Positions 5,132-27,127 of a stretch of 37,945 nt of DNA are shown here, piece by piece; position 1 is the first letter of the stretch; the number at the start of each line of letters is the position of its first letter. The position numbers were made by a program, and so were the translations under genes. The DNA comes from Lachnospiraceae bacterium NK4A144. GTDB lineage: Bacteria; Bacillota; Clostridia; Lachnospirales; Lachnospiraceae. Location of the stretch: positions 1-37,945 of the forward strand of contig AUJT01000033.1 in assembly GCA_000424365.1 (NCBI GenBank), read 5' to 3'. Below the pieces are notes generated by a model that did no database searches, had not been told where the DNA came from, and saw only the letters and a list, made by a program, of their open reading frames with translations.

Positions 5132-5213
5132 AGCGAATGATAACATATCGTAACGAACTTTAAGGATAAATGTATCCCTATTCTGAATGCATTACATTAA
5201 CAAAAGGAGAGTT

Positions 5214-8503: not shown

Positions 8504-10303
8504 ATGGTATCTATATATAATTTGTTCGCCCAGAGTCTTTCTGGCGAAGTTTATATTTATGGATTTGATGTGCAATCAAAGAAACTATTGATGATACTGA
8601 TAAATTGTAATATCTACGTAAGCGGATTTGTTGTAGAAGAGAGATTATTTTCAGGGGAATTTCATTATATAGGAAAGAGATTATATACAAGGGAAGAATT
8701 CGAAAGAGAGACTGATCGATCGAAGGCAACATTGCTTGCATGGAATGAAAAAACGATAGAAGAAATCAAAAATCAGCAAACATTAAAATTAGTTCCGTTT
8801 CTATCATCTGATAAGACTTTTGTAATATATGGAGCCGGAATGATGGGCAAGAAGGCTCTTGAATTAATTAATGAATTTGGTGGTAATGTCATAGGATTCT
8901 GCGACAGAGATATAAAGAAACAGCAAGATGGCTATCTGGGTTATAAAGTTTATTGCATTGAAGATGTGCTTGAGCAAAAAGATTGTGAAATTACGCCTAT
9001 TGTTGCAATTTATCAAAATGATGAAAATCAAAAGATATGTTCTAAATTCAAATCGGAAGGTATAGATAGTTACAGTTATTCTGAGAGAGAAGAAAACTTT
9101 TCAACGTCAATTATATTCGATGATAAATACCCGGGAGGAGATACTGAATTTCTTTATTATCTGTATGAAAAGAGCAAAACCAGAAAAATAGTATTGTTAG
9201 GAATACACTCAGATATTTTATTGGATGCAGCTGATAAATTCAGTTTGGCTGGTTTGGAAATATATAGGATTGCTTGTTTTGATAAGGAAGATATAAATGA
9301 CAATCATGGAAATAAATTCATAGATGCATTCGATTTAATTGACGAAAAAATAGACGATAGCATTTTCGTAACGATAGCATATGAGGATGAAGACATAGAT
9401 AAGATTAACACATTTATCAGGGTCTCAGGAATAGATGAAAGGATAGTGATAAGGCAAAGGCAAGGGCCTAATCGTTTATACCATATGTTTTATTTGGATG
9501 TCAATTTGGGCTATTGTCTTGGAAACCATGATACTGTCTTACAAACAAGAAATAGAATTAAACATAGTAGAATAGCCATTATCGGTGGTAGTGCATCTGA
9601 TATTCATGCTTTTACTGAAAAATCATGGCCTGAATATTTGGTGGAAGTAATGGATGAACATAATATAGCGGCAGATATATTATGTGGTGCAGTTGCTGGA
9701 TATACGGTAAGTCAGGAAATTATTAAATTTTTAAGGGATATATATATCCAATTCAAACCGGATATTGTTATTAGCTATTCTTTTTATAACGAACTCAGTG
9801 GAGTATATGCTGATAATCATCCTTTTGTGCATGATTATCAAAAAAAGATATTTACAATTTTTGAAAAGGCAAACAGAAGAACTTCATATGCTGATACAGA
9901 AATAAAAAATAAGCTAAATTTGGGTGAGGAACAAAAGGATATTATTGGTCACTGGATTTCTATTGAAGATGCAATGCATTCAATATGTAAAGCACAAGGA
10001 ATTAAATTCTATTCTTTTATACAGCCGGCACTTCCTGTAAAAACTAATAAAAGTGAAGCTGATATTGAGGCATTGGAGCATGTATTGCCTAATAATCGTA
10101 ATCGATTTGCTGATATATCAAAAAACTATAACTTGTTGCAAATACAAGCAAATGATATCGCGTGGATGTACGATGTTTCAGGATATATTTCAAATAGAAA
10201 AGCCAGAACATTTTACGATTTATGCCATTTGTTTGAAGAAGCAAATAAAGATGTTGCAAATTATGTCTTTGAACAGCTAAAAGAGTCAATTGATGATAAG
10301 TGA
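8504..10303 (+). CDS. SGNH-hydrolase-like enzyme with three N-terminal Rossmann-like modules
   Basis: A 599-residue protein. The C-terminal part (about 355-599) has all four SGNH blocks: GGSASD with Ser363, GAVAGYT, SFYNE with Asn429, and DLCH (Asp572, His575). SGNH enzymes are esterases, acetylesterases or acyltransferases on glycans. The N-terminal 320 residues look like three successive Rossmann-like units, near residue 15 (VYIYGFD), near 106 (FVIYGAGMMGKKALEL, then GFCDRD) and near 228 (KIVLLGIHSD). The middle one matches the module fused to many other enzymes of this locus. No signal peptide is present, so it acts in the cytosol. GAGGGG precedes ATG 8504. It may add or remove an acyl group on the growing glycan or an activated precursor. 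Substrate unknown. Confidence 0.7.
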   Translation: MVSIYNLFAQSLSGEVYIYGFDVQSKKLLMILINCNIYVSGFVVEERLFSGEFHYIGKRLYTREEFERETDRSKATLLAWNEKTIEEIKNQQTLKLVPFLSSDKTFVIYGAGMMGKKALELINEFGGNVIGFCDRDIKKQQDGYLGYKVYCIEDVLEQKDCEITPIVAIYQNDENQKICSKFKSEGIDSYSYSEREENFSTSIIFDDKYPGGDTEFLYYLYEKSKTRKIVLLGIHSDILLDAADKFSLAGLEIYRIACFDKEDINDNHGNKFIDAFDLIDEKIDDSIFVTIAYEDEDIDKINTFIRVSGIDERIVIRQRQGPNRLYHMFYLDVNLGYCLGNHDTVLQTRNRIKHSRIAIIGGSASDIHAFTEKSWPEYLVEVMDEHNIAADILCGAVAGYTVSQEIIKFLRDIYIQFKPDIVISYSFYNELSGVYADNHPFVHDYQKKIFTIFEKANRRTSYADTEIKNKLNLGEEQKDIIGHWISIEDAMHSICKAQGIKFYSFIQPALPVKTNKSEADIEALEHVLPNNRNRFADISKNYNLLQIQANDIAWMYDVSGYISNRKARTFYDLCHLFEEANKDVANYVFEQLKESIDDK

Positions 10304-10332
10304 AGTAAGAGCGTTTATAGAGGTATTACGAG

Positions 10333-11505
10333 ATGCAAGATATATATCTTGAAAAGGACGGTATAGGTCAAGTTCTTAATACTTATGAGAGTATATATAT
10401 ATTTGGATGTGGACTAAGGGGAAAAGAAGCAGCTTATCACTTAAATAAAGCAAATATAAAAGTTTCAGCTTTCTATGATAATGATTGGACCTTATGGGGC
10501 AAACGTGTTGTTTATAACTGGTATTGTGAAAAGCCTCATAATGCAGATGTGTCAGCGGTATGTATTATTGCGGTATCAAAGAAATATCAATATGAAATAA
10601 AAAATCAAGTGTCTGAATTAGGATTCAAAAATGTTTTGTTATGGAAAAGCTCTTTTGATGAAGAGATAGCTGTACAAGAAGAATATTTTGATAGATATAT
10701 AAGCCTTCTAAATAAACGAACGCCAAAGTCAAAATTATATTTTGTTATGGATATTACTGAACATTGCAATTTAAACTGCCAGATGTGCGATCATTTTTCA
10801 CCTCTATCTGATAAGTATTTTGTTGAAATACAGTCTGTTGAGAAGGACATCAAAAGGATAGCCGAACTGTTTGGGAATGATGTACCGTTCGTATGTTTGG
10901 AAGGGGGGGAGCCACTGCTGCATCCAGAAATATGCAGAATTATTTCGATAGTAGATAAATATCTTCCCAATACAGAGATTCAGATTTTTACAAATGGAAT
11001 CAAACTCTTAAGTATGACAGAAGAGTTTTGGCGAGTGTGTCGAGATTCATCTGTAGTCCTGATGATTACAAAATATCCGATGGGGTTTGATTATTCTAAG
11101 GTTGAATCGATCGCAAAATTAAAAAGTGTTGAATTAAGGTATTTTAACAATAAAGAAGAGATTAAATCTTCGATACACAAACCTATAGATCTTACAGGAA
11201 AACAGGATTGTTATAGCAACTTTCATTCATGCTATATGGCAAATGCAGAATGTGTTGATTTAAAAAATGGCAGATTATATCCTTGTACATTTGCGGCTAA
11301 TATTCACATTTTCAACAAGTATTATGGAAAGAACATTACTGTGTGCGATAAAGATTATTTGGATATTCATTCTGAAATAACAGCAGATGATGTAAGATAT
11401 TTTCTCTGTAATCCGATACCTGCTTGCAAGTATTGTATGGTTGATAAGTGGAGCTACGGACATAAGTGGGAAGTTTCAAAAAAACATATCGAAGAATGGA
11501 CATAG
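10333..11505 (+). CDS. Radical SAM enzyme with N-terminal Rossmann-like module
   Basis: A 390-residue protein. Residues 20-105 form a Rossmann-like module (IYIFGCGLRGKEAAYHL, then FYDND and WGKRV). The radical SAM core starts near residue 135: the [4Fe-4S] triad is Cys145-x3-Cys149-x2-Cys152 in CNLNCQMC, and GGEP at 191-194 contacts SAM. The C-terminal part has spaced cysteines (CYSNFHSC, LYPCTF, LCNPIPACKYC) suggesting SPASM/twitch-type auxiliary clusters. Such enzymes generate a 5'-deoxyadenosyl radical for epimerisation, dehydration or C-C/C-S bond formation. In a glycan cluster with no peptide precursor a sugar or attached group is the likely substrate. It differs clearly from the twin enzymes at 21497 and 23126. 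The next gene starts 9 nt after its stop. Confidence 0.85.
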   Translation: MQDIYLEKDGIGQVLNTYESIYIFGCGLRGKEAAYHLNKANIKVSAFYDNDWTLWGKRVVYNWYCEKPHNADVSAVCIIAVSKKYQYEIKNQVSELGFKNVLLWKSSFDEEIAVQEEYFDRYISLLNKRTPKSKLYFVMDITEHCNLNCQMCDHFSPLSDKYFVEIQSVEKDIKRIAELFGNDVPFVCLEGGEPLLHPEICRIISIVDKYLPNTEIQIFTNGIKLLSMTEEFWRVCRDSSVVLMITKYPMGFDYSKVESIAKLKSVELRYFNNKEEIKSSIHKPIDLTGKQDCYSNFHSCYMANAECVDLKNGRLYPCTFAANIHIFNKYYGKNITVCDKDYLDIHSEITADDVRYFLCNPIPACKYCMVDKWSYGHKWEVSKKHIEEWT

Positions 11506-11513
11506 GAAATGAT

Positions 11514-11981
11514 ATGAAAAAAATATGTATTTTTGGCACTGCATCGAAACAATACATAATGGGACTTATTAAGGATAGTCATAAACAGAATTGTGACATT
11601 ACGTTAGTGATACCACAAAAGAATGTTAAAGATTACAGAGATTTAAATAAGTTGCGAATCATAATTAATAAAGGTGATTTTATAGATTATATGTGTCTAA
11701 AGGGAAATAAGCAGCTAAGTGATAAGCATTATGATGAGGTGTATGTCCTTTCTTCACAAAAAGACAATTTTTATCAGTTTTGCGATTGTTATTGTGTTAT
11801 CTCTGAGATGAGTTATTCAAAAATGATTTGGGTAGGTTCGAACGGAGAAAGAATTATTCAAGATAATGGTTTATTGGAAAAAACAGAAAGATGTGCGCAA
11901 TATCTGATTGTAAGCTTTGTATATAAGATTGCGGAAATTCGATGTGCGATAACTGATTTTATCATGGGATACAGGTGGTAG
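11514..11981 (+). CDS. Small Rossmann-like protein of unknown function (155 aa)
   Basis: The ATG at 11514 has AGGAAA overlapping the end of the preceding radical SAM gene. The protein begins MKKICIFGTASKQYIMGLI, a beta-strand and glycine-turn start resembling the Rossmann-like module of neighbouring enzymes, but the classic GxGxxG is not kept. The centre has DEVYVLSS and MIWVGSNGERI strand-like segments. The C-terminus is hydrophobic and helical (LIVSFVYKIAEI), possibly an interaction surface. No family is recognised. Its stop lies 2 nt before the amidotransferase start, so the two are probably translationally coupled. Confidence 0.6.
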   Translation: MKKICIFGTASKQYIMGLIKDSHKQNCDITLVIPQKNVKDYRDLNKLRIIINKGDFIDYMCLKGNKQLSDKHYDEVYVLSSQKDNFYQFCDCYCVISEMSYSKMIWVGSNGERIIQDNGLLEKTERCAQYLIVSFVYKIAEIRCAITDFIMGYRW

Positions 11982-11983
11982 AT

Positions 11984-13891
11984 ATGTGCGGTATAGCTGG
12001 AATTATAAATAAGAACGGAGATAAAGTTTCCAGACAAACAATTGAAAAAATGACCAATGTTATGTACCACCGGGGGCCTGACGCAGGAGGTGTTTTTATA
12101 AATGATAATGTCAGCCTTGGACACAGAAGACTTTCGATAGTTGATTTGAGTGATTTAGGTAATCAACCGATGGAATCAAGTGATGGAAACATAGTTATAG
12201 TTTTTAATGGAGAAATATATAATTATCCGGAAATAAAAAAGTCACTTGAGTCGAAAGGGACGAGTTTCAAAACTAATACAGATACTGAAGTTATTATAGA
12301 GTCTTATCGCATTTGGGGTGAAAAATGTGTAAATAGATTTAATGGAATGTGGAGTTTTGCACTGTACGATAAACAAAAAGAAGTATTGTTTATGTCTAGA
12401 GATCGGATGGGAGTTAAACCGCTTTATATCTTAGATAGACAAGATTGCTTTGCGTTTGCATCGGAAATAAAGAGCTTAGTAGCGGTATTTCCGGACGAAA
12501 AGATTGTAGATGAAATACAGTTAGCTAGATATTTAAGAGGAATACAGGAAGATTCAGATGATAGGACATTTTATAAAAATATAAAAAACTTTACTCCAGC
12601 CACAAATGTGATTTATAATCTCAATTCTGGTAAACAAAAGCAATATAAGTACTGGAAAGTAGATCAGGCGAGGTTTAAGGAAAAGTGGAAGAGCAAAAGA
12701 CCGGATATTTTATTTAGAAAGTTATTTGAGGACTCAATAAGAATCAGGCTTAGAGCTGATGTTCCTGTAGGTGCAAGTTTATCAGGGGGATTGGACTCAT
12801 CAGCAATAGTTGAAGTCGGAAGAAAAAAATTCAATAAAAGATTTCATACATTTTCTTCTATATATAATTCAGATAAATATGGAGAAGAACAGTTTATTGA
12901 TTGCGTAAACAAGGACACAGATTCGATTAGTCACTATATTTATCCTGATAAACAGCCGAATAAGATGCAGGACTTTCGAGATATGCTTTATTATCACGAT
13001 AATCCTCCTTGTTTTGCGTCACCATACAGTGGATATTGTGTGTATAGGGGAGTAGGGGATACTGTGACAGTATTGCTTGATGGACAGGGAGCTGATGAGT
13101 TGTTTGCGGGTTACTGTGGTCTTATAACATCTAGGATAAAAGACTTGCTGGAGGGTGGTCTGACTAATAAGTTAAAAGCAATTACGACTACATCATATTG
13201 TAATAAAATTTGGTCTAATGCGGAATTTATACCTGATGAAATTAAGTTAAGGACATTAGGAATTATATCTTTTAAAAAATATCTCACAAAAAAAAGGAAG
13301 AAAAAAGAAAAATTTCAGATATCGCCCAAAGAACTATTTGATACCAAACTGTTAAGTATCGATATTGAAAATGTTTACGAAGATGAAAATGGTATAGAGG
13401 GAAAATTCAAGAGAGCTCTTTATCATGAACAGTTTCACAGTACTTTACAAAGAATATTGCATGATGTTGACAGAAACAGTATGTCACAATCTTTAGAGGT
13501 AAGATTGCCCTTCCTTGATTATCGCATTGTTGAGTTTTCCTACAGTATAGATGATGATTGGAAATTCAGAAATGGCTGGACGAAATATATTATACGCAAA
13601 AGCCTTAAAAAGTATATGCCAAAAAAAATATGGTCAAGGAGGCAAAAATTAGGCTTTCCTGCACCGTTTGAATTTTGGATGAGAGATTCAGAATACAAAG
13701 ATGAGATAAGAAAGCTGGTATTTGATCTTGCCGATAGAGGATTACTAAATAGGTCTTATCTTAGAGAATTATACCAAAAACAATTAGATGGATTGTTGGA
13801 TGAACAGGATTTATTTTTTAGATTCATGATGCTTGAGATGTGGCTTGAATCAGAAATAGACAGTGAAAACTACAAGTGGAAATTTGCATGA
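11984..13891 (+). CDS. asnB: Asparagine-synthase-type glutamine amidotransferase
   Basis: A 635-residue two-domain protein. The start at 11984 gives MCGIAGI, so Cys2 becomes the N-terminal nucleophile of the class II glutaminase; an upstream in-frame ATG at 11975 would bury it. The glutaminase domain carries RGPD, GHRRLSI, FNGEIYN and SRDRMGVKPLY. The synthetase domain has the ATP pyrophosphatase loop SGGLDSS at 267-273 and later LPFLDYRIVEF. Free asparagine synthesis is the textbook role. In polysaccharide loci related enzymes (the WbpS type) amidate uronic acid carboxyls to uronamides with glutamine nitrogen. With UDP-glucuronate supply here (4082, 30104), glycan uronate amidation is the better inference. 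The gene is intact. Confidence 0.88.
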   Translation: MCGIAGIINKNGDKVSRQTIEKMTNVMYHRGPDAGGVFINDNVSLGHRRLSIVDLSDLGNQPMESSDGNIVIVFNGEIYNYPEIKKSLESKGTSFKTNTDTEVIIESYRIWGEKCVNRFNGMWSFALYDKQKEVLFMSRDRMGVKPLYILDRQDCFAFASEIKSLVAVFPDEKIVDEIQLARYLRGIQEDSDDRTFYKNIKNFTPATNVIYNLNSGKQKQYKYWKVDQARFKEKWKSKRPDILFRKLFEDSIRIRLRADVPVGASLSGGLDSSAIVEVGRKKFNKRFHTFSSIYNSDKYGEEQFIDCVNKDTDSISHYIYPDKQPNKMQDFRDMLYYHDNPPCFASPYSGYCVYRGVGDTVTVLLDGQGADELFAGYCGLITSRIKDLLEGGLTNKLKAITTTSYCNKIWSNAEFIPDEIKLRTLGIISFKKYLTKKRKKKEKFQISPKELFDTKLLSIDIENVYEDENGIEGKFKRALYHEQFHSTLQRILHDVDRNSMSQSLEVRLPFLDYRIVEFSYSIDDDWKFRNGWTKYIIRKSLKKYMPKKIWSRRQKLGFPAPFEFWMRDSEYKDEIRKLVFDLADRGLLNRSYLRELYQKQLDGLLDEQDLFFRFMMLEMWLESEIDSENYKWKFA

Positions 13892-13901
13892 GTTGGTGGA
13901 T

Positions 13902-15167
13902 ATGGATACTTTCATAGAACAAAACAAATATAAGGTTTCTGTAGTTATGCCGGTATATAACAAAGGAGTGTTGTTTGAGGAGGCTGCTAAGAATGTATTA
14001 AATCAAACCATCGATTCAATCGAATTGATCTGCGTGGATGACTGTTCATCAGATAAAAAAACCTTATCTGTATTGGAAGAACTTGCTAATCTTCCAAATG
14101 TAACTGTTGTAAAAAATAAAGAAAATGTTGGAGCTGGAAAGAGTAGAAATATAGGATTTTCTTATGCATCAGGTGAATATGTTATTTTTCTTGATGCAGA
14201 TGATTCGTTTGATGTAAACATGCTTGAACGTATGTATGCTAATGCCAAGTCGAATAATGCAGATATGTGCATATGTGGTAGTAAGTGGAAATATGCAAAC
14301 GGGATTTGTAAATCTTTTGATGTTGATGACACAGTGCATAAGAAGGACAACTGGATAATTAGCATCTCATATAATCCTTGGGATAAACTTGTGAAAAGAA
14401 GCGTGTTAAGGAATGAAAACATTTATTTTCAGAATCTTTCGTCATCAAACGATATATATTATTCCTGTGCACTTTTTATGGTTTGTAAAAATATTACATA
14501 CCTGAAGGAACAATATCTGGTTACTTACAATGCTGATGTAGAAGGACAAATATCATCAAAAAGGAACCCGCAAAATATAGTAAGGGTTGCGGAAGAAATT
14601 CAGAATAATTTTCCGAAAAATGAACAGCTAAATAATGGAATATTAATTCTTTTTTTAGTAGTCAATATGATATTTGAATTTCGAAGATGTAATTCTGATA
14701 ATCTGAAGAAAGAATGTTATGAGACTGTTAAGAGCATTGTTAGTAAGAATTCAAATGATGAGTTGAATATAACGGATAAATACATGTTTCATTTAGTTAA
14801 ACAAACATTGTCCGAGAAATATGAGTCAAGATGGTTCGATACGGCATTAAATCTTGAAGACAGACTGAGGTTTTATTATCCTCAAATAATAGATTATATC
14901 AAGTATTACAAACGGCCTCTGCTGTGGGGATTTGGAGCAAGAGGAAAAGCTTTTGCAGACTTGTGCAAAGAGCATGGTTTTTCACTTTGGGGCATATTTG
15001 ATAAAAATCCCAATATGATAAATCAAAGTACTAATTTTAGTATAATTTCAGATCAAGAAGTCGCGATAAATTCACCTGACGTGATAATAGCGTCAAATTA
15101 TACGATTGCAAATTTTATAAATGACAAAGGTTGCACAGAAATTGTGAATTTAGAAGATTATTGTTAA
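13902..15167 (+). CDS. GT2 glycosyltransferase with C-terminal Rossmann-like module
   Basis: A 421-residue protein with a GT-A family 2 domain at residues 8-230 (VSVVMPVYNK, ICVDDCSSD, KSRNIGF, and the metal/nucleotide-binding FLDADD). The segment SSSNDIYYS follows, where family members carry an acidic catalytic residue. The last 100 residues form a Rossmann-like module: PLLWGFGARGKAFADL, GIFDKNPNM, then PDVIIASNY. The ATG at 13902 lies just after the amidotransferase stop; a longer start at 13863 overlaps that gene. It is closely related to the next gene, so the pair is a tandem duplication. No membrane segment. Donor and acceptor sugars cannot be read from sequence. Confidence 0.85.
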   Translation: MDTFIEQNKYKVSVVMPVYNKGVLFEEAAKNVLNQTIDSIELICVDDCSSDKKTLSVLEELANLPNVTVVKNKENVGAGKSRNIGFSYASGEYVIFLDADDSFDVNMLERMYANAKSNNADMCICGSKWKYANGICKSFDVDDTVHKKDNWIISISYNPWDKLVKRSVLRNENIYFQNLSSSNDIYYSCALFMVCKNITYLKEQYLVTYNADVEGQISSKRNPQNIVRVAEEIQNNFPKNEQLNNGILILFLVVNMIFEFRRCNSDNLKKECYETVKSIVSKNSNDELNITDKYMFHLVKQTLSEKYESRWFDTALNLEDRLRFYYPQIIDYIKYYKRPLLWGFGARGKAFADLCKEHGFSLWGIFDKNPNMINQSTNFSIISDQEVAINSPDVIIASNYTIANFINDKGCTEIVNLEDYC

Positions 15168-15177
15168 GGATATGCGC

Positions 15178-16449
15178 ATGTGTGATGTATCAATAATTGT
15201 ACCTGTATTTAATACAGGGCAAGATTTAGAAAGGGCAATTAGTTCTATTTTGTTACAAAGATCTGTTTCTTATGAAGTAATATGCGTGAATGACGGAAGC
15301 GATGATGATACTACCATTAAGATTTTAGACGAGTTAAGAAATAAAACTGGGATTCAAGTGTTGGACTTAGCTATTAATCATGGGGCTGGGTATGCCCGAA
15401 ACATAGGATTAGATAGTGCTAGTGGAGAGTACGTTATTTTTCTTGATTCTGACGATGTATATGATGCAAATATGCTTTCCAATATGTTAATCAAAATAAA
15501 AAATGAAAATGCTGATGTTTGCCTGTGCAATAGTAAATGGGTTGATGGGGATGGAAATGTGTTTTTGCAAAACTCATCTGCTATTGATAAAAAATATGAA
15601 GATTGGATTATGAGATTTTCTTATGAACCATGGACTAAGTTAGTACTAAGAAAAACTATTGTTGATAATAATATAAAATTTCAGGAGATATCGTCATCTA
15701 ATGATATTTATTACTCTTTTTCTATATTAAGTGTTGCTCGGAATGTCACTGTTTTTGATGAATACCCTATGGTAACACATTTTTTGGGCAAAACAACGCA
15801 AATATCGTCAAATCATGATGCAAGAAATATTTATTATGTTGGAGAAAAAATTTGTAATGAATACCATGAAAAAGGCTTGGTGACTATTTCTGATATAGCG
15901 TTATTTTTGATAATAGGTATCGCTAGAGAATACAAGTGGTGTCGAAATGATAAACAGAAAGAGGAATGCTATGAATTAGTAAAGAGTTTTATTATTTCAA
16001 ATGAGAAAAATATCATTTTTAGTAACTATTATCATTCCTATTTGTTGAGAAATATTATTAAAAATAGTTATGAGTCTGGTTGGTTAGAAGAGGCGTTGAG
16101 CGAAAATTGCAAACTAGAATCATGGTTACCTATTATTGTTTCAAAGATGGAAAAATTCAATAATGTTGTCCTGTGGGGAGCTGGTAACAGAGGAAAAATC
16201 TTTTTGGGAATTTTAAAACGGAAGAATATTAGAATTCGTGCAATAACGGATATAAGATTAGATTTACAAAAAGTCGAAACCATAACAGATATCATGATTA
16301 TTCAACCTGACGAAGCAATAAAGTATGCAGATTGTATTATCGCTTCGAACAAGGAAATTCGCGATTATGTAATAGAACGGGGGTTTAGTAAATATATTAT
16401 AAATCTGGAAGATTATCTTTTAGGTAATATTGATATTTTAGAATCATAA
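15178..16449 (+). CDS. GT2 glycosyltransferase with C-terminal Rossmann-like module
   Basis: A 423-residue paralogue of the preceding gene with the same architecture: VSIIVPVFNTG, ICVNDGSDD, ARNIGLDSASGEY and FLDSDD in the GT-A domain, then SSSNDIYYS, a helical middle region and a C-terminal module (VVLWGAGNRGKIFLGI, AITDIRLD, ADCIIASNKE). The ATG at 15178 is preferred over 15172 because AAGGA lies 7 nt before it. The shared SSSNDIYYS and the similar W-x-KLV segment support recent tandem duplication followed by divergence, probably giving two linkages in one repeat unit. No transmembrane helix. Confidence 0.85.
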   Translation: MCDVSIIVPVFNTGQDLERAISSILLQRSVSYEVICVNDGSDDDTTIKILDELRNKTGIQVLDLAINHGAGYARNIGLDSASGEYVIFLDSDDVYDANMLSNMLIKIKNENADVCLCNSKWVDGDGNVFLQNSSAIDKKYEDWIMRFSYEPWTKLVLRKTIVDNNIKFQEISSSNDIYYSFSILSVARNVTVFDEYPMVTHFLGKTTQISSNHDARNIYYVGEKICNEYHEKGLVTISDIALFLIIGIAREYKWCRNDKQKEECYELVKSFIISNEKNIIFSNYYHSYLLRNIIKNSYESGWLEEALSENCKLESWLPIIVSKMEKFNNVVLWGAGNRGKIFLGILKRKNIRIRAITDIRLDLQKVETITDIMIIQPDEAIKYADCIIASNKEIRDYVIERGFSKYIINLEDYLLGNIDILES

Positions 16450-16468
16450 ATTTTAATACCGAGGAGTG

Positions 16469-17914: not shown

Positions 17915-17950
17915 AACTACGATAATCTCGATAAACATGAGGAACACAAT

Positions 17951-19072: not shown

Positions 19073-20241
19073 TAATAAATTATTTCGGTTCTGATGACTT
19101 GAAAAAGAAACAAAAGACTGGCTACAGGATTGTTCTCTATGGTGCAGGTATTTCCGGTAGAATCGTATGCAAATTACTGAAGACTTGCGGGGTAATTCCT
19201 GACTTATTTGCAGATAATTCTATTGAAAAAATTGGTAAAGAGATTTGCAATGGTGTGTTATGTTTCAAGCCACAGGATATTGAAAATAAAGACCGGTGTT
19301 TAGTATTCGTATGCATTCAGTGGGAAAAGAAAGATATTTTATATAAAAAAGCCTGTGAAGATGGATTTGAAAATTTTTGTCATATTTCCGGAATAATAGA
19401 TGAAATACTAACTATGAAGAGGCATTTGATATCAGATGTTTTAGAGGTTCTTGAAACTGAAGATGTAAGTAATCTTATTATAACTCGTGATATAAATGCT
19501 TTAGAAAAGAAAAGTCATACTTGTACTTCATACAAAGGAAAGATAGCCGTATACACGGCAGTATTCGGAGAATATGACCCAGTATATGAACCAAAATATA
19601 TTTCTGAAAATATAGATTATTACTACATTTCTGACGTAAGACCGAAAGATTTATATTCCTATAATTGGATTGATGCAAGCGAGTATATTTCTGAAAATAT
19701 AGTCGGACCGATAAAGAGAAACAGATGGTTCAAGATGCATCCTCATATTGTTTTCCCAGAATATGAAGCTTCTATATATTTTGATGGATGGGCTGAAATA
19801 ACAAAAGATGTTTCTGCATATCTTCACAGTAATAAAACAGGAATATCGGTTTTTAGATACTATAACAGAGATTGCCTATATTATGAAGCATTACAGATGG
19901 CAAATTACAAAAGAGTTATAAAAGACGAACTTCTAAGGCAAATAAATAGGTATCTTGATGAGGGATTTCCACTACATTATGGTATGGCAGAAATGCCGGT
20001 GATTGCCAGATTCCATAATAATCCTTTGTGCATCAAAATCATGGAGGAATGGTGGAATGAATTTAATCAAACAGCACTAAGAGATCAGCTTTCGTTTATG
20101 TACGTTATGTGGAAAAATGGTCTGGGATTAGCTGATCTATCCTTATTAGGTGAGGATTACAGAAAAGCTGAGGAGTATATATTTCATCAACGTATTAATG
20201 ACACAAAATATATAGCAAATCCGGATTTCAAATATTATTAA
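19069..20241 (+). CDS. DUF616 putative glycosyltransferase with N-terminal Rossmann-like module
   Basis: The ATG overlaps the preceding TGA (ATGA), so translation is coupled. Residues 25-120 of 390 are a Rossmann-like module (IVLYGAGISGRIVCKLL, LFADNSIEKIGKEICNGV, LVFVCIQW). Residues 160-390 match DUF616, the TOD1/MUCI70-like family: IAVYTAVFGEYD, PHIVFPEYEASIYFDG, and RYYNRDCLYYEA. DUF616 proteins are thought to be cytosolic or Golgi-type glycosyltransferases. The usual metal-binding Asp is seen in IYFDG. No membrane segment. The next gene starts 12 bp downstream. Confidence 0.82.
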   Translation: MIINYFGSDDLKKKQKTGYRIVLYGAGISGRIVCKLLKTCGVIPDLFADNSIEKIGKEICNGVLCFKPQDIENKDRCLVFVCIQWEKKDILYKKACEDGFENFCHISGIIDEILTMKRHLISDVLEVLETEDVSNLIITRDINALEKKSHTCTSYKGKIAVYTAVFGEYDPVYEPKYISENIDYYYISDVRPKDLYSYNWIDASEYISENIVGPIKRNRWFKMHPHIVFPEYEASIYFDGWAEITKDVSAYLHSNKTGISVFRYYNRDCLYYEALQMANYKRVIKDELLRQINRYLDEGFPLHYGMAEMPVIARFHNNPLCIKIMEEWWNEFNQTALRDQLSFMYVMWKNGLGLADLSLLGEDYRKAEEYIFHQRINDTKYIANPDFKYY

Positions 20242-20253
20242 AGGGGTAGAAAT

Positions 20254-21462
20254 TTGAAAAAGGTATCTATTGTCGTTGCGGTTTACAATGCAGCACCATA
20301 TTTGCAAGAGTGTATTGAGTCTTTAACATGTCAATCCTATAAGAACATTGAAATCATTTGCGTAAATGACGGATCAACAGATGATTCTCTAAGTATCTTG
20401 AATGATTATGCTTCCAAAGATATCCGTATACAGGTCTACTCAAAAGAAAATGAAGGTAAAGGTGCTGCTCCGGCAAGAAATATGGGGCTTGATCATGTAT
20501 CCGGAGACTATGTGATTGTATTAGACAGTGATGACTTTTTTGAGCCGGATATGGTTGAATCCATGGTAGAAAAAGCTATTGAAACTGATGCTGATATGGT
20601 TTTTTGTACAGCAAGACATTATGACCATTTGAATCATTGTCGTGGATCAATATTTAAGCGTCCCGAGTTTCAATATGTACCTGACAAGAATCCATTCTCC
20701 TATCGCGATTGTCCTGATTATATTTTTCAGATTGCAGATTTTGTTGCATGGAATAAGTTGTTCAAACGTGATTTTTTAGAAAAAAATAAGCTTCGTTTTG
20801 AAGGAATACCAATTTCAGATGATCAGTATCCATCCGTAATGGGATCTGTCCTTGCCAACCGGATAGTAGTAATCAACAAGCCATTTATTAATTACAGAAT
20901 AAATACAGGAAAAAGTCAGGTTGATTCTCAAGCTAAACATCCGGAAGCTGCATATCAGGCAATATTTTCAGTAGTAGAACGCATGAGGAAATTAGGTATC
21001 TATGAGGAAGTCAAACGGAGTTATTGCAATATAGCTATACTTCTCATGCGACAGTACTTTGACAGAATGAGAAGGTATGATGATTTAAAATTTTTATATG
21101 AAAAATTCAATAAAGAAATTTTTCCGTTTTTGGGTGCTGAGAATCTTCCGATTGAATATTTTTATGATCATAGAGTTGGTGAATGGTACGAGCTGATCAC
21201 AAATAATAGTCTAGGAGAGGTTTTATTTCAAGCGGCAAGGAGCTACGGCTCTGATATGACAACCGCAGGTCTAAGATTTAGATTTCCGTTTTCTGATGCT
21301 GATAAAGGAAGCAATATTGCAATCGTTGGAAAGGGAATTGCCGGAAGGTACTGGTATTCGCAGGCTGTTTTATCGGGATACTACAATGAGGTTTTTTGGA
21401 TCGGAAAAGAAGAGGATTTATCAAAAGTTTCCGGTGTAGATAAAGTTTTATATGCCAAGTGA
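20254..21462 (+). CDS. GT2 glycosyltransferase A of the twin radical SAM/GT2 pair
   Basis: A 402-residue protein starting with TTG at 20254, with AAGGGG 7 nt upstream; the first residues MKKVSIVVAVYNAAPYL make this start convincing. The GT-A domain shows VNDGSTDDS, ARNMGLDHVSGDY and LDSDDFFEPDM, then FVAWNKLFKRDFL and ISDDQYPS. The last 80 residues carry a Rossmann-like module (IAIVGKGIAGRYWYSQAVLSG). It is strongly similar to the GT2 at 24776 through the whole length, including the odd GKGxAGRYWYSQ turn. The two flank the twin radical SAM genes. Confidence 0.87.
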   Translation: MKKVSIVVAVYNAAPYLQECIESLTCQSYKNIEIICVNDGSTDDSLSILNDYASKDIRIQVYSKENEGKGAAPARNMGLDHVSGDYVIVLDSDDFFEPDMVESMVEKAIETDADMVFCTARHYDHLNHCRGSIFKRPEFQYVPDKNPFSYRDCPDYIFQIADFVAWNKLFKRDFLEKNKLRFEGIPISDDQYPSVMGSVLANRIVVINKPFINYRINTGKSQVDSQAKHPEAAYQAIFSVVERMRKLGIYEEVKRSYCNIAILLMRQYFDRMRRYDDLKFLYEKFNKEIFPFLGAENLPIEYFYDHRVGEWYELITNNSLGEVLFQAARSYGSDMTTAGLRFRFPFSDADKGSNIAIVGKGIAGRYWYSQAVLSGYYNEVFWIGKEEDLSKVSGVDKVLYAK

Positions 21463-21496
21463 ATAAGGCATAATTCAGATTCTTTGGAGGTATGTT

Positions 21497-23113
21497 ATGC
21501 GATCCCCTTCTGAAATGGGAACAATTCAAATAGACATCACTAATGCTTGTACATTACAGTGTTCGAATTGCACGCGTTTTTGTGGCAATCACAGTAAGCC
21601 ATTTTTTATGAACTATGAAGATTTTAAAAATGCTGTGGATTCTCTTGATGGATTTAATGGTGTAACTGGTGTAATGGGGGGAGAACCTACACTTCATCCT
21701 GAATTTGAGCGTTTTGTTTTGTATCTTCAAAAAAAGTTTGGAAAAAGAAAACGTGTAAACAGGCTGTTGTATCCACAAAATGATTTCATATGGGAAATAA
21801 GAAGAAGGGAAATAGAGAGTAGTGTTTTAAGAGAAAGACCTGATGGGAGTCGTTTTATTAAAACACATGGTCCTGGTCTATGGTCTAACATGAGCGCCTC
21901 GTATTTGAAATATTATGAGTTAATACAGGATACTTTTGAGGTACAGTATCTAAACGACCATATGAATCCGTCATATCATCAGCCCGGTTTATTTAGCCGA
22001 AGGGACTTAGGAATTACTGACGAGGAATGGATTCCAATTAGGGATAAATGTTGGATTCAGAATGAATGGAGTGCAACCATAACTCCTAAAGGGGCTTTTT
22101 TCTGCGAAATTGCAGGAGCATTAGACATGTTATTTAATGGCCCCGGCGGATGGAAGGTTGAGAAAGGCTGGTGGAGAAGAACTCCTGAAGACTTTAAGGA
22201 TCAGCTTCATTGGTGTGAAATATGTGGATTTGCATTAAGTACATTTGTCCGAAATGCTGAAGAAGAAACTGATGATGTATCCCCATATGTGTATGAAAAA
22301 TTGAAAGCTTTAAACAGCCCAAAGTTAAAGAGCGGACGAATAAATATAGTACAGATAAAAGATGGAGTCATTGCTGAGGAATCAAAGGCAGAGATAAAAA
22401 CATTTAACTCGTACGACCGATACATGGAACATTATGAGGATCGATTCAGCAGAAACAATTCTATTCTGTATAAATGTGATTACATTGAAAAGAACATAGA
22501 CATAGAATCCGGTACTTTTGGTGTACAGCTAAATGAACTACTAAATTTAAATGAGAATTGGATTCTTCTTAAGAACGATTCATACTCAGATGATTCAGAA
22601 ATAAAAGAGAAGATTGGAAAAGTAATCTGGAATCCGGGATGTTTGCATATTGGTAAGGGGTATATTTTCTTTAATAAAAATGCAAATTCAATAAAGGAAA
22701 TGGGATATCAGAAAATTGCAAACATGAAGCATAGATGTGAATTTATAGAAGCATGGCAACCGGATAAAATCATATCTTTGACTGATATCGTAGAAAAGAC
22801 AAAACTTAAATTGCCGTCAATTAGTCCTAATGTAAGATATGTAATTTGGGGGGCTGGTTTATATGGTGAATATATTTCAGATGCTGTGAAATGTTCCGGA
22901 GGGTCAGTACCGTTTATTGTGGATAATTCTTGCGAGAAGCAAGGAACAGATCTATATGGTTCGCATGTTTTTTCACCTGATAATCTTTTAAAAAAGGATG
23001 ATGATTGGGATATATTGATTATTGCGCACTTTACAAAATTTGAAGAAATTGAAAAAGAAGTTCTAAATATGGGAATAAGTAAGGATAGAATTCGTCTTCC
23101 TTATGAAATGTGA
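21497..23113 (+). CDS. Radical SAM enzyme A with SPASM-like and Rossmann-like C-terminal domains
   Basis: A 538-residue protein with GGAGG 6 nt before its ATG. The radical SAM core is at the very N-terminus: Cys18-x3-Cys22-x2-Cys25 (plus Cys29) in CTLQCSNCTRFC, and GGEPTLHPEF from 61. A cysteine-containing region follows (KCWIQNEWSATITPKG, AFFCEIAG, HWCEICGF, near 185-245), suggesting an auxiliary cluster. Residues 446-538 are a Rossmann-like module (YVIWGAGLYGEYISDAV, FIVDNSCEKQG, ILIIAHFTKFEEI). Function unknown; a radical step on a sugar or sugar-linked group is inferred. By eye about 70% of the first 240 residues match the next gene. This copy is more AT-rich than its twin. Confidence 0.85.
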   Translation: MRSPSEMGTIQIDITNACTLQCSNCTRFCGNHSKPFFMNYEDFKNAVDSLDGFNGVTGVMGGEPTLHPEFERFVLYLQKKFGKRKRVNRLLYPQNDFIWEIRRREIESSVLRERPDGSRFIKTHGPGLWSNMSASYLKYYELIQDTFEVQYLNDHMNPSYHQPGLFSRRDLGITDEEWIPIRDKCWIQNEWSATITPKGAFFCEIAGALDMLFNGPGGWKVEKGWWRRTPEDFKDQLHWCEICGFALSTFVRNAEEETDDVSPYVYEKLKALNSPKLKSGRINIVQIKDGVIAEESKAEIKTFNSYDRYMEHYEDRFSRNNSILYKCDYIEKNIDIESGTFGVQLNELLNLNENWILLKNDSYSDDSEIKEKIGKVIWNPGCLHIGKGYIFFNKNANSIKEMGYQKIANMKHRCEFIEAWQPDKIISLTDIVEKTKLKLPSISPNVRYVIWGAGLYGEYISDAVKCSGGSVPFIVDNSCEKQGTDLYGSHVFSPDNLLKKDDDWDILIIAHFTKFEEIEKEVLNMGISKDRIRLPYEM

Positions 23114-23125
23114 GGTACAAAAAAT

Positions 23126-24757
23126 ATGCGTTCACCCGCAGACATGGAATTTATTCAAATAGATATAACGAATGCCTGCAATATGAGGTGTTCAAACTGT
23201 ACAAGGTTTTGCGGTAACCACGCAAAGCCTTTTTTTATGGATTTTGATACCTTTAAACGTGCGGTAGATTCACTGGATGGTTTTGAGGGTGTGACAGGTA
23301 TTATAGGTGGTGAGCCTACATTGCATCCGGAGTTTGAACGGTTCGCAAGGTATATGCGTGAGAAGTATGGTGAGCCTTCCGGTGGTGATAGATTGTTATA
23401 TCCGCAGAGTGATTTCATACATTCTGTCCATCTTTGTGAATTCGATAGTGAGAAGGTACGGGAACGATCCGATGGCAGCCGGTATATGAAAAAGCACGGT
23501 GCCGGTCTATGGTCAAATATGAGCGCTACTTATCGGAAATACTATGAAGTGATCCAGGACACTTTTTCTGTGCAATACCTGAATGACCATCTGAATCCTT
23601 CATACCATCAGCCGGGGCTTTTTTCCAGAAAAGATTTAAATATCCCTGATGATGAGTGGTTCAGGCTTCGTGATAAGTGTTGGATCCAGAATACATGGTC
23701 AGCAACTATTACCCCGAAAGGGGCTTTTTTCTGTGAAATTGCAGCTGCGCTTGACATGCTTTTTGACGGTCCTGGCGGATGGAAGATTGAGCCGGGATGG
23801 TGGAAGAGAAAGCCGGAAGATTTTGCGGATCAGATGCACTGGTGTGAGATATGCGGTTTTGCGTTAGAGGGAAGAACTTTTACGCGTGATTCTCAGGAAG
23901 AGACAGATGATGTATCTCCAACAGTATTTGAAATGCTGAAAAAGACTGGGAGTCCTAAGCTAAAATCCGGACATATTAATGCAGTCAAGATTGAAAACGG
24001 TGTTATTAGTGATTCGAGTAAGCCTGAGGATAAGCGTTTTGTAGTTGGTAATCGGTATATAGCTAAATATGAGGACCGTTTTCAGGAGAAAAATTCTGTA
24101 CTATTTCAGATTGACTATGATGAGCTAGTTATAGCTGATGGTGAGGAATTTGGAAGCGAGCTCGTGAAAGTAATGCATGGTGATCATGAAAGCAGCGCAG
24201 ATTGGGTATTGCTGAAACATGATAGAGATACAGATATAAGTGACTTGGAGTCTATGATTGGTCGTCGGGTATTTAATCCCGGTGTACTTCATGAAGGACG
24301 GGATTATTTATTTTTCTGCAAGGGCGCGATATCACTTCGAGAGTTAGGCTATGACAGGCTGTCTCATTTGATGAGTGTGCTGGAGTTTAAGAAATCCTGG
24401 AATCAGGGAAAGATCATTAATATTTCAGAGATCGATCGTAAAACAGATCTTAAGCGTGAATCTTTGAAAACAGATGCAAGGTATGCTATCTGGGGGGCTG
24501 GGATGTTAGGAGAGAATTTTGCTGAGATGGTGGAGCTGTCAGGAGGCAAAGTCGTTCTCGTAATTGACAAGGCAGAGGATAAGACAGGGAAGCTTTTTGC
24601 AGGGGTAGAGATTTCAGTGCCGGAGAAATTGGCTGAACAGTCTGATACATATGATTATCTGTTGATTGCGCATCACCTTAAGTTTGAAGATATAAAACGT
24701 GATGCTGTAGAAATGGGTATTCCGGAAGAAAAGATCATTATGCCGTATGAGGTTTAA
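23126..24757 (+). CDS. Radical SAM enzyme B, paralogue of the preceding gene
   Basis: A 543-residue protein with the same three parts as enzyme A: CNMRCSNCTRFC near residue 18, GGEPTLHPEFERF, the same cysteine region (KCWIQNTWSATITPKG, CEIAAALDML, HWCEICGF) and a C-terminal Rossmann-like module (YAIWGAGMLGENFAEMV, LVIDKAEDKTG, LLIAHHLKFEDI). It starts 12 nt after enzyme A, with GAGG upstream. The strong similarity makes tandem duplication certain, but base composition differs: this gene and those after it are visibly richer in G+C. Conservation of all Cys residues in both copies argues that both are active, perhaps on two sugars or positions. Confidence 0.85.
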   Translation: MRSPADMEFIQIDITNACNMRCSNCTRFCGNHAKPFFMDFDTFKRAVDSLDGFEGVTGIIGGEPTLHPEFERFARYMREKYGEPSGGDRLLYPQSDFIHSVHLCEFDSEKVRERSDGSRYMKKHGAGLWSNMSATYRKYYEVIQDTFSVQYLNDHLNPSYHQPGLFSRKDLNIPDDEWFRLRDKCWIQNTWSATITPKGAFFCEIAAALDMLFDGPGGWKIEPGWWKRKPEDFADQMHWCEICGFALEGRTFTRDSQEETDDVSPTVFEMLKKTGSPKLKSGHINAVKIENGVISDSSKPEDKRFVVGNRYIAKYEDRFQEKNSVLFQIDYDELVIADGEEFGSELVKVMHGDHESSADWVLLKHDRDTDISDLESMIGRRVFNPGVLHEGRDYLFFCKGAISLRELGYDRLSHLMSVLEFKKSWNQGKIINISEIDRKTDLKRESLKTDARYAIWGAGMLGENFAEMVELSGGKVVLVIDKAEDKTGKLFAGVEISVPEKLAEQSDTYDYLLIAHHLKFEDIKRDAVEMGIPEEKIIMPYEV

Positions 24758-24775
24758 GTGAATTGGGGCAATGCG

Positions 24776-26020
24776 ATGGATGAGAAGAACGTAAAAAACA
24801 TAATATCGGGTGAACCGCTGGTTTCCATTGTTATCCCCGTGTATAACGCTGAAAAGTATCTGAGGCAGTGTCTGAATTCAGTGCTCGATCAGACTTGGAA
24901 GAATCTGGACATCGTTTGCGTGAATGATGGATCAAAAGATGAGTCACTCCATATTCTCAATGAATATGCAGACCATGATTCACGTATTCATGTATTTACG
25001 AAAGAGAACGAAGGGAAAGGCGCAGCATCCGCCCGTAATATGGGGCTTGAAAACGCTGAAGGTGAGTATGTTCAATTTCTTGACAGTGATGATTTTTTTG
25101 AGCCTGATATGATTGAAGCTCTGATGAATAAGGCGGTAACAACAGAGGCTGAAGTCGTAATTTGCAGAGGTCAGACTTATGAAGATTCATTGCAGAAGGT
25201 AACCGGAATACTTCCTCATCCTGATCTGCAGTTTGCCCCGGCTAAGCCGGCATTTTGTTGGAAAGAAGTTCCGGAATATATCTGTGAAATAGATGATAAC
25301 TATGCCTGGAATAAGCTGTTCAAGAGAGCGCTGTTGATTGAGCATGATCTGCATTTTACACCAATTCCTATTTCGGATGATCAGGATATATCAATGATCG
25401 CGCCAATTGTAGCTGAGAAGGTTGCAGTAGTAGACAGGGCATTTATAAATTACAGAGTCGGTACAGGTACGAGCCAGTGCGATTCTCAGACAAGGCATCC
25501 GGAAGCAGCTTATGAAGGCTGCTATACGGTTGTGAAAAGGCTCAAAGAACTTGGTGTATGGGATGTTGTAAAACAAAGCTATTTGAATGTTGCCATTCGC
25601 CTCATGCGTGAGTATTTCGATCGCATGACGGAATATGAAAAGACAGAGTTTCTGTATAGAAAGTATAGAGAAGACATTTTTCCTTTTTTGGAAGCAGAGG
25701 ATTTGCCGGAAGGATATTTTCATGATGAACGTATCTGGAGCTGGTATCAGTTAATTATGAGTAAGCCGCTTCCTGAGATTATTTTTGAGGCCGCAAGGGC
25801 ATCCGGCGGGACCATGACCACGGCACCATTACGGTTTCAGGTGCCTTATGAGAGCATCCGGAAAAATAGCCGGATCGTGCTGGTAGGAAAAGGTCTTGCA
25901 GGAAGATACTGGTATTCTCAGCTTCTATTATCCGGGCATTGTGATGTGATCTATTGGACAGACAGCGAAGATCATATACCTCAGAATCTGGAGTTTGATT
26001 CGGTGGTAAGGGCGAGGTGA
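24776..26020 (+). CDS. GT2 glycosyltransferase B of the twin radical SAM/GT2 pair
   Basis: A 414-residue paralogue of the GT2 at 20254. The GT-A domain shows LVSIVIPVYNAEKYL, VNDGSKDES, ARNMGLENAEGEY and LDSDDFFEPDM; then YAWNKLFKRALL and ISDDQDIS; the C-terminal module is RIVLVGKGLAGRYWYSQLLLSG. ATG 24776 has GGGG 7 nt upstream; a GTG at 24758 right after the previous stop is also possible. Together with the gene order GT2, radical SAM, radical SAM, GT2 it shows that each radical enzyme has a matching transferase. Confidence 0.87.
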   Translation: MDEKNVKNIISGEPLVSIVIPVYNAEKYLRQCLNSVLDQTWKNLDIVCVNDGSKDESLHILNEYADHDSRIHVFTKENEGKGAASARNMGLENAEGEYVQFLDSDDFFEPDMIEALMNKAVTTEAEVVICRGQTYEDSLQKVTGILPHPDLQFAPAKPAFCWKEVPEYICEIDDNYAWNKLFKRALLIEHDLHFTPIPISDDQDISMIAPIVAEKVAVVDRAFINYRVGTGTSQCDSQTRHPEAAYEGCYTVVKRLKELGVWDVVKQSYLNVAIRLMREYFDRMTEYEKTEFLYRKYREDIFPFLEAEDLPEGYFHDERIWSWYQLIMSKPLPEIIFEAARASGGTMTTAPLRFQVPYESIRKNSRIVLVGKGLAGRYWYSQLLLSGHCDVIYWTDSEDHIPQNLEFDSVVRAR

Positions 26021-26023
26021 ATA

Positions 26024-27127
26024 TTGAATAACGAAGTTTATATATTTGGAGCAAAAGCTACAGCAGCCGGACTGTATAAGGCATTATCGGTTTTGGAGCC
26101 GGATAAGAAGGTAAAGGCGTTTCTTGTTTCAAACTCAGATGGGAATGTATCAGAGATATTTGGTATTCCTGTAAAAGTTTTGTCAGAGGAAGCAGGCTGT
26201 TTATCTGATAGAGATAAGAATGATGTTTTAATTTACGCTGCAGTCCCAGAGCTTGTCCATGAAGAGGTTAAAGATCTGCTTGTTGGATATGGATTTCAGA
26301 ACCTGGTGATGCTGGACTCTCGGATTGAAGCGGATATGATGGGACGATATTTTGATATTGTTGGCAGGTTCCGATCAGTTCATTCTCTGAGTGTTGATGA
26401 TGAAATGGAGAATGGTCCTAAGGTGGCTGTATATGCGGCATCGTTCTATAAAGATAAGCCTTTGAAGAATCCTCCGGTCATGCCGACTTACGTAAAAAGT
26501 TTATATTTAGGGTGTGATGGAGCAGAAAAGGCTGGAATAGACATCAGAAATCTGGCGGATTTCTATGATAATACGGGAGATAACATTTCATCGAAGAACC
26601 CGAATCGCTGTGAGATGACAGCCCATTACTGGGTATGGAAGAACAGATTAATGACGGATGATGAATACGTGGGGATTTATCATTATCGCAGGATTTTGGA
26701 TCTGTCTGATGATGATCTTAGGAAGATGGCTGCTAATGATGTGGATGTTGTTCTGCCTTATCCAATGATCCATTATCCCAATGCAGCTATTCAGCATACC
26801 TGGTATGTTCCTGAAAAAGATTGGAATCTGATGAGACGGGTGGTTGAAGAGATTAGTCCTGAGTATGGATTGAAGTTTGATGAGGTGTTTAATGCACCTG
26901 AGTTCTACAACTACAATATGCTGGTTGCCAAGAAAAAGGTGTTTTCAGATTATTGCGCCTGGTTGTATCCGATTCTTGACAGGATTGAGGAATTATCAGA
27001 ACCGAAAGGAAAGGACAGGCATGATCGTTATACAGCGTACATGAGCGAGAGCCTGGAAACGTTGTATTTTATGGCTAATCTGAATAATCTGAAAATTTAT
27101 CATACTGGAAGGCTGCTATATACATAG
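26024..27127 (+). CDS. DUF4422 putative glycosyltransferase with N-terminal Rossmann-like module
   Basis: A 367-residue protein starting with TTG at 26024, with GAGG overlapping the previous stop. Residues 4-100 are a degenerate Rossmann-like module (EVYIFGAKATAAGLYKAL, AFLVSNSDGN, VLIYAAVPEL). Residues 125-367 match DUF4422: VAVYAASFYKDKP, the diagnostic DNISSKNPNRCEMTAHYW, and YVGIYHYRRIL. DUF4422 proteins are glycosyltransferases of capsule clusters; some have been linked to galactofuranose transfer, which would fit the nearby glf gene, but this is an inference. No membrane segment is visible. Confidence 0.82.
   Translation: MNNEVYIFGAKATAAGLYKALSVLEPDKKVKAFLVSNSDGNVSEIFGIPVKVLSEEAGCLSDRDKNDVLIYAAVPELVHEEVKDLLVGYGFQNLVMLDSRIEADMMGRYFDIVGRFRSVHSLSVDDEMENGPKVAVYAASFYKDKPLKNPPVMPTYVKSLYLGCDGAEKAGIDIRNLADFYDNTGDNISSKNPNRCEMTAHYWVWKNRLMTDDEYVGIYHYRRILDLSDDDLRKMAANDVDVVLPYPMIHYPNAAIQHTWYVPEKDWNLMRRVVEEISPEYGLKFDEVFNAPEFYNYNMLVAKKKVFSDYCAWLYPILDRIEELSEPKGKDRHDRYTAYMSESLETLYFMANLNNLKIYHTGRLLYT

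Follow-up and report, generated by a model that had tools for sequence, protein, structure and literature searches.

A module shared by ten proteins of a glycan locus

Contig C30 of the 4.09-Mb genome of Lachnospiraceae bacterium NK4A144 (37,945 nucleotides, here called the window) bears a same-strand run of glycan genes, and between positions 8504 and 27127 ten of the encoded proteins share a homologous module, some 80 residues long and placed near one terminus. The module is C-terminal in two GT2 glycosyltransferases, a GT4 glycosyltransferase and two radical SAM proteins. It lies near the N-terminus of another radical SAM protein, a TupA-type ATP-grasp protein, a TOD1/MUCI70 (DUF616) protein, a DUF4422 protein and an SGNH-like protein. 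An earlier note on this DNA had claimed a single Rossmann-like module recurring at either end of unrelated glycan enzymes; the profile searches described below bear this out and add two carriers, the ATP-grasp and DUF4422 proteins, which that note did not list.

All of these modules are on the forward strand. In map order, the SGNH-like protein (8504-10303, an identity judged by eye; no Pfam hydrolase family matched) carries the motif IYGAGMMGKKA in a module at 8822-9064 (E=1.3e-14; PF17836, 26.6 bits against a cut-off of 23.4). It possibly holds a weaker module ahead of this one, at 8549-8776 (E=0.0077 with a hidden Markov model (HMM) from other genomes, E=5.4e-10 with a self-trained HMM); a third module, at residues 225-325, found no support in the profile test. 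Tandem two-module proteins of this kind are few, the others occurring in the related loci L073, L081 (11798-13123) and L180. The radical SAM protein at 10333-11505 (PF04055, 39 bits against 29.5) has its module at 10393-10626 (E=2.1e-13). Profile search found no module in the asparagine synthase encoded amid the module genes (11975-13891) or in the small open reading frame (ORF) at 11466-11981. C-terminal modules follow in the GT2s at 13863-15167 (module at 14913-15137, E=6.2e-5, bounds from the self-trained HMM) and 15172-16449 (16162-16386, E=6.4e-10) and in the GT4 at 16466-17914 (17651-17887, E=5e-16). The ATP-grasp protein at 17951-19072 (PF14305, E=4.6e-59) and the DUF616 protein at 19054-20241 (PF04765, 52.1 bits against 21.4) have N-terminal modules at 17981-18205 (E=2.6e-9) and 19126-19350 (E=3.4e-13). 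The radical SAM proteins at 21497-23113 and 23126-24757, with PF04055 scores of 26.1 and 27.8 bits that fall under the cut-off, end in modules at 22835-23077 (E=1.2e-19) and 24479-24721 (E=3.1e-17). The N-terminal module of the DUF4422 protein (26024-27127; PF14393) is at 26036-26296 (E=5.4e-11) and has VSN at the position where most modules have an acidic residue. Two further GT2s, at 20254-21462 and 24758-26020, end in half-modules (21313-21459 and 25871-26017). Taken alone, these match at E=52, which is not significant, and at E=1.9; the assignment is based on relatives, which show the same short form, a longer one or the whole module.

Identity to the first row of the alignment is only 13-38% among the modules, and homology was therefore tested with an independent HMM, built from other genomes only, with modules attached to the same partner cluster left out. 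This test HMM recovered all ten window proteins (E from 3.4e-5 to 3.4e-16). Reversed or shuffled proteins and other Rossmann enzymes of the window gave no match, and with these controls negative we reject convergence and chance similarity of low-complexity sequence. Nor are these just the usual enzymes binding nicotinamide adenine dinucleotide (NAD), since the GalE, UXS and UGD proteins (named by eye) and the epimerase of the window went unmatched. A Rex-like protein and a ketol-acid reductoisomerase of the same genome do match the module HMM distantly, as do several NAD(P) dehydrogenases of solved structure. In Pfam, one of the ten window modules passes the PglD_N model and another passes PF22674; the remaining eight receive no name.

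Spread and partner enzymes

At E<1e-3 the NK4A144 genome yields 34 matches, of which 31 fall in three glycan loci: 11 in the window, 15 at 198-257 kb of contig C2 and five at 50-63 kb of contig C16. The three outside these loci include the Rex-like protein and the reductoisomerase. Partners in this genome belong to 13 Pfam families scoring over cut-off, namely radical SAM, GT2, GT4, TupA ATP-grasp, TOD1/MUCI70, DUF4422, cytidylyltransferase-like, AP-endonuclease-like TIM barrel, GT sugar-binding DXD, TylF, DUF268, RgpF and WbsX. Strong matches among 48 module-bearing proteins extend the range to LicD, FkbM, CDP-glycerol glycerophosphotransferase and MptE-like proteins. A simple blastp grouping places 292 module-bearing ORFs from 40 loci in 80 partner clusters, 51 of them singletons, which should be read as a rough figure.

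Matches at E<=1e-9 occur in 22 of 48 genomes of the genus, the largest numbers of matches being 34, in NK4A144, and 28 in another genome. In the family sample, 47 of 60 genomes match at E<=1e-6, mostly once and in a frame of Rex size, and five genomes besides NK4A144 have three or more matches. In the phylum sample, where at most 17 candidates per genome were scored so that the counts are lower bounds, at least 49 of 299 genomes match at E<=1e-10 and at least nine besides NK4A144 have three or more. With the terms used, the open-licence literature yielded no description of this shared module. The module exists as claimed, is found widely in these loci and has little annotation; it puts a known fold to a new use.

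Restriction to certain loci

The module might have been an ordinary part of each enzyme family, a finding that would have undone the earlier note's proposal. GT2 proteins argue otherwise. Among 201 GT2 ORFs of four genomes, 34 have two or more further module-bearing ORFs no more than 10 kb away, and 22 of these carry the module, against none of the 167 elsewhere in the same genomes (Fisher p=4e-21, uncorrected for kinship). Two of the 12 module-less GT2s in module-rich neighbourhoods are the half-module GT2s of the window. The 201 ORFs were merged from 206 matches, and the count used 78 module rows plus 35 for NK4A144. These 35 comprise 32 of the 34 matches at E<1e-3 (omitting C7:70719 and C30:8546) and three further rows: the weaker C16:58870, which has self-trained HMM support, one from the genus search and one computed. 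On a poorly resolved tree of 67 of the 76 GT2 ORFs, the module is scattered, with 11 changes, and is therefore not confined to one GT2 clade. The tree is weakened by two slice-end fragments of module-bearing GT2s that entered it as module-less rows.

Radical SAM proteins likewise speak against an ordinary family part, with 38 of 59 relatives lacking the module. All 21 relatives that carry it lie among at least two other module ORFs, as do nine of the 38 that lack it; 22 of the 38 have no module neighbour. The count covers 59 of 64 loci, after one start-cut locus and four very weak matches were dropped, and further radical SAM ORFs were not taken as neighbours. One radical SAM clade retains the module, and the link between radical SAM modules and these loci is an association, not a phylogenetic test. 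Independent contrasts gave too few supported pairs, three for radical SAM and five for GT2, of which on average 1.4 and 2.6 ran in the expected direction and none in the opposite one.

Stand-alone module proteins and WbsX

Related loci also encode proteins of 126-171 residues that consist of little more than the module. Fifteen short module ORFs were seen, and four unlike this kind were excluded from its alignment. In the remaining 11, the module is preceded by a helix, whose tryptophan is kept in ten, and six have a hydrophobic N-terminal stretch. Their best library matches are weak (E=4.7e-4 in Pfam and E=2.7e-3 in NCBIfam), and among solved chains their profile has nothing better than weak matches to dehydrogenases (E=0.019 for the best). 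At E<=1e-12 the profile matches 33 of 250 family genomes. Among the 54 matches listed, 26, from 21 genomes, are in frames of at most 215 residues; the rest are longer and include frames of WbsX size. Of 20 loci fetched with this profile, 19 contain 23 stand-alone proteins, 14 of which have a hydrophobic stretch. Within the fetched slice, 17 of the 19 loci hold at least one module-bearing ORF of over 200 residues, and 16 hold at least two. Overall, the family sits in L093, L096, L097, L180, L181, L187, L192 and L195-L213, many of its members having the N-terminal hydrophobic stretch. Flagellin-like, Maf-like and NeuB-like genes, recognised by eye, occur in some of these loci (L208:17027-18001, L208:14989-16866, L210 and L197), and part of the systems with stand-alone proteins may therefore serve flagellin glycosylation.

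The WbsX glycosyltransferases show both arrangements. Of 13 WbsX ORFs in the loci fetched, eight carry the module fused and four are unfused, touching or overlapping a stand-alone module gene (by 0, 12, 7 and 6 bases). The search for WbsX covered just the loci fetched beforehand; these are not randomly drawn, some having been obtained with the stand-alone profile itself, and six of the eight fused proteins trained the WbsX model. By eye, the catalytic part stops at the same place in the three complete unfused ORFs; the fourth, in L212, is cut by the end of the slice. The stand-alone partner has its own hydrophobic stretch in L197 and lies upstream of WbsX in L180, so these are not broken fusions, and the pair in L192 may be a frameshift split. 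The stand-alone and WbsX genes are at 9611-10090 and 10090-11190 in L197 and at 6633-7013 and 5605-6645 in L180. A fusion of such a kind usually implies that the two parts act together.

Conservation and relatives of known structure

Conservation was scored on 223 modules, identical rows having been merged (229 to 223). A Rex-like protein, three reductoisomerase-like proteins (one recognised by Pfam, two by eye) and a FlaA1-like protein (by eye) were excluded. The three glycines of the glycine loop are kept at 95%, 83% and 56% (alanine 20% at the last), weighted. An aspartate after the second strand is kept at 78%, also weighted, and like the loop is among the best-kept positions. In 59 of 296 modules, about one fifth, V, I or A replaces the acidic residue. 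The module profile matches solved chains of 3nkl, Rex, 2g6t, NAD(P) dehydrogenases, WbaP and VioB, the best being 3nkl (E=7.6e-12), followed by Rex (3.4e-11), with the WbaP chains at about 1.5e-5. The conserved glycine loop and acidic residue, together with the WbaP relative, favour a nucleotide ligand. An aromatic residue before the loop (Y, F or W in 97%) was considered as a mark of binding to sugars of uridine diphosphate (UDP) and was dropped, VioB having no such residue.

PglD_N, which holds a UDP-sugar for an acetyltransferase domain, is one of two relatives that the earlier note had named. The likeness holds: PglD_N (PF17836), as in the NeuD/PglB/VioB acetyltransferases (TIGR03570), shares with the module the succession of strand, glycine loop, helix and strand ending in D. 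Its cut-off is passed by the SGNH-like protein's module, as given above, and by a TylF-fused module of the NK4A144 genome (31.2 bits); the other window modules stay under it, and 6 of 48 module-bearing proteins match at E<=0.001. The SGNH-like module also matches TIGR03570 at 3.4e-9, far below the cut-off, and a sub-profile matches VioB (7txp) at E=2e-5. Unlike the PglD_N-type enzymes, the window proteins have no matched acetyltransferase domain, and the module occurs on many other enzymes or alone. The other relative, the C-terminal domain of C-methyltransferases (PF08484), is weakly similar, scoring 13.3-16.5 bits against 23.5 in three window proteins and one other of the genome. The earlier interpretation stands in part, for a homologous module at either end with PglD_N kinship; as the module's role, that note had suggested docking, sensing or the holding of a common nucleotide sugar.

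By profile kinship the module also resembles the cytosolic PF13727 regulatory domain of WbaP and 3nkl, and kinship rather than membership is meant, as PF13727 itself is not among the Pfam matches of the window proteins. According to the WbaP study (PMC10942596), this accessory domain is part of two families of membrane enzymes, the large phosphoglycosyl transferases and the PglF-type dehydratases, and in WbaP it supplies most of the dimer contacts. The same study reports that the domain is stabilised by UDP and by uridine mono- and triphosphate (UMP and UTP) and destabilised by UDP-Gal, and that UMP inhibits full-length WbaP with an apparent half-maximal inhibitory concentration of 4.1 uM. In EpsZ, another study places the equivalent domain in a modelled dimer promoted by the response regulator EpsW (PMC12802240). 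In contrast to PF13727, the module is borne by many soluble enzymes and also makes up small stand-alone proteins. The four transmembrane helices of the PF13727 type were not found before the module, 22 window proteins tested showing no clear membrane segment (19-residue mean at most 1.94, in the epimerase), and stand-alone proteins elsewhere have, by eye, at most one hydrophobic stretch there. A nucleotide-binding, partner-binding accessory domain of this sort is the best-founded analogy for the module, although the ligand may be NAD.

Two other relatives are Rex and PF22674. Rex (CoA_binding, PF02629) combines such a fold with a DNA-binding domain and senses NADH/NAD. It is a close solved match, and the DNA-binding model PF06971 is met in the Rex-like protein of NK4A144 and in none of the window proteins scanned. 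PF22674 (C2185-like_N) is passed at four places genome-wide. The only one among the window modules is that of the radical SAM protein at 23126 (32.5 bits against 27), the one at 21497 scoring below. The chain 2g6t, an HI1244 homologue titled uncharacterized, which we take to be the prototype of this model, matches by single sequence at E=2.2e-5.

A proposed role for the module

We propose that the module is a portable, non-catalytic accessory subunit with a nucleotide-binding Rossmann-like fold. Through binding to further modules or to enzymes, it would couple the glycan enzymes within a locus. It would act in cis when fused and in trans when encoded separately, and membrane-anchored stand-alone copies, where present, would join the coupling. 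Its state would be set by the nucleotide that it binds, most probably one of the uridine nucleotides or a nucleotide sugar. We hold this account tentatively, at somewhat less than even confidence. Stand-alone proteins with a probable membrane anchor and the fused and unfused forms of WbsX favour a separable partner-binding unit. A comparison may be drawn with dockerin and cohesin, in which a small module is common to many unrelated enzymes of one system and separate anchored copies exist. The module is alike in both respects and differs in having another fold, in being cytosolic and in showing no repeated-receptor scaffold. A dockerin-like cytosolic assembly, with a nucleotide-gated module on enzymes and on membrane-anchored stand-alone proteins and with interchangeable fused and separate forms, is possible, if doubtful. 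Were it true, the sugar transferases of one locus would be gathered with its radical SAM enzymes, methyltransferases and ligases in a membrane-linked assembly line. How a dozen soluble glycan enzymes are ordered on one product in bacteria is, in our judgement, largely open. A common module marking the enzymes of one locus predicts which of them belong together and which surface or ligand deserves testing. It would also give a name to the stand-alone proteins and to a domain that goes without annotation, in Pfam as in NCBIfam, in most window proteins scanned.

Several observations weigh against coupling by the module. Modules that share a locus but sit on different enzymes resemble each other no more (20.7%, 638 pairs) than modules from separate loci of a single genome do (20.5%, 906 pairs; permutation p=0.23, with p=0.20 for pocket columns and p=0.41 for the remaining ones). 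There is therefore no sign of locus-specific partner surfaces, and generic docking, sensing or both remain. The best-conserved positions look like those of a pocket and a core, and by eye no exposed patch stood out as conserved. As to the ligand, NAD(P)-dependent dehydrogenases (4.5e-6 and 1.2e-5) match about as well as WbaP, and Rex matches better, so the matches do not point to a uridine ligand in particular. NK4A144 itself has no stand-alone protein, its two matches to that profile being frames of 426 and 519 residues, and two of the 19 stand-alone loci show no module-bearing ORF of enzyme size in the slice. Special placement of stand-alone genes next to module-less enzymes was rejected, since 47 of 64 immediate neighbours lack the module against 174 of 254 ORFs of over 200 residues locus-wide. 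The thirteenth WbsX relative, of 913 residues, in a GT2 region of NK4A144 outside the three loci, has neither a module nor a stand-alone partner. Finally, the radical SAM tree has just three changes, too few for a test.

The absence of any sign of locus-specific surfaces would also suit a pure nucleotide sensor, whose ligand would be a uridine nucleotide, a nucleotide sugar or, as in Rex, NAD, and which would tune its own enzyme only, the loci being pathways that need feedback. This is unlikely in our view. The pocket motif is the best-conserved part, and the uridine-nucleotide response of the WbaP domain and the UMP inhibition of WbaP (PMC10942596) speak for a sensor. Against this, stand-alone proteins have no output domain and would have to work through another protein, the acidic residue is replaced in one fifth of modules, and the module also sits on enzymes whose families need not produce UDP or UMP (methyltransferases, radical SAM, ATP-grasp).

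An improbable alternative is substrate handling, in which a PglD_N-like module would keep the nucleotide sugar or growing glycan close to the active site. The PglD_N matches described above and the presence of VioB among the solved matches speak for it, whereas the occurrence of one module at either end of enzymes with very different substrates, and as stand-alone copies, speaks against it. Least probable is that the module does little and owes its abundance to an exchange of genes and terminal fusions between these loci: the strict locus restriction in GT2s, the half-modules of two window GT2s and their relatives, and a module likeness that tracks partner family (24.8% across genomes) rather than locus are compatible with hitch-hiking, but pocket residues are kept in 223 modules, fusion to unrelated families is repeated, and frames of stand-alone size occur in 21 of 250 genomes among the matches listed.

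Other features of the window

No flippase, polymerase or transporter was recognised by eye at 4058-32400. A NusG-like protein (by eye), which we take to be of the LoaP/RfaH type, is encoded at the start of the island (2060-2614), a position common for such genes in long polysaccharide operons. The island is flanked by a pair of genes that closely resemble each other and by eye look nuclease- or transposase-like, at 3006-3907, where the gene is split into two ORFs, and at 35073-36107, where it is whole; the pair could serve island recombination. A carbamoyltransferase is likewise divided between two ORFs, the first (5187-5582) covering positions 2-90 of the N-terminal domain model and the second (5667-7052) covering positions 160-346 together with the C-terminal domain.

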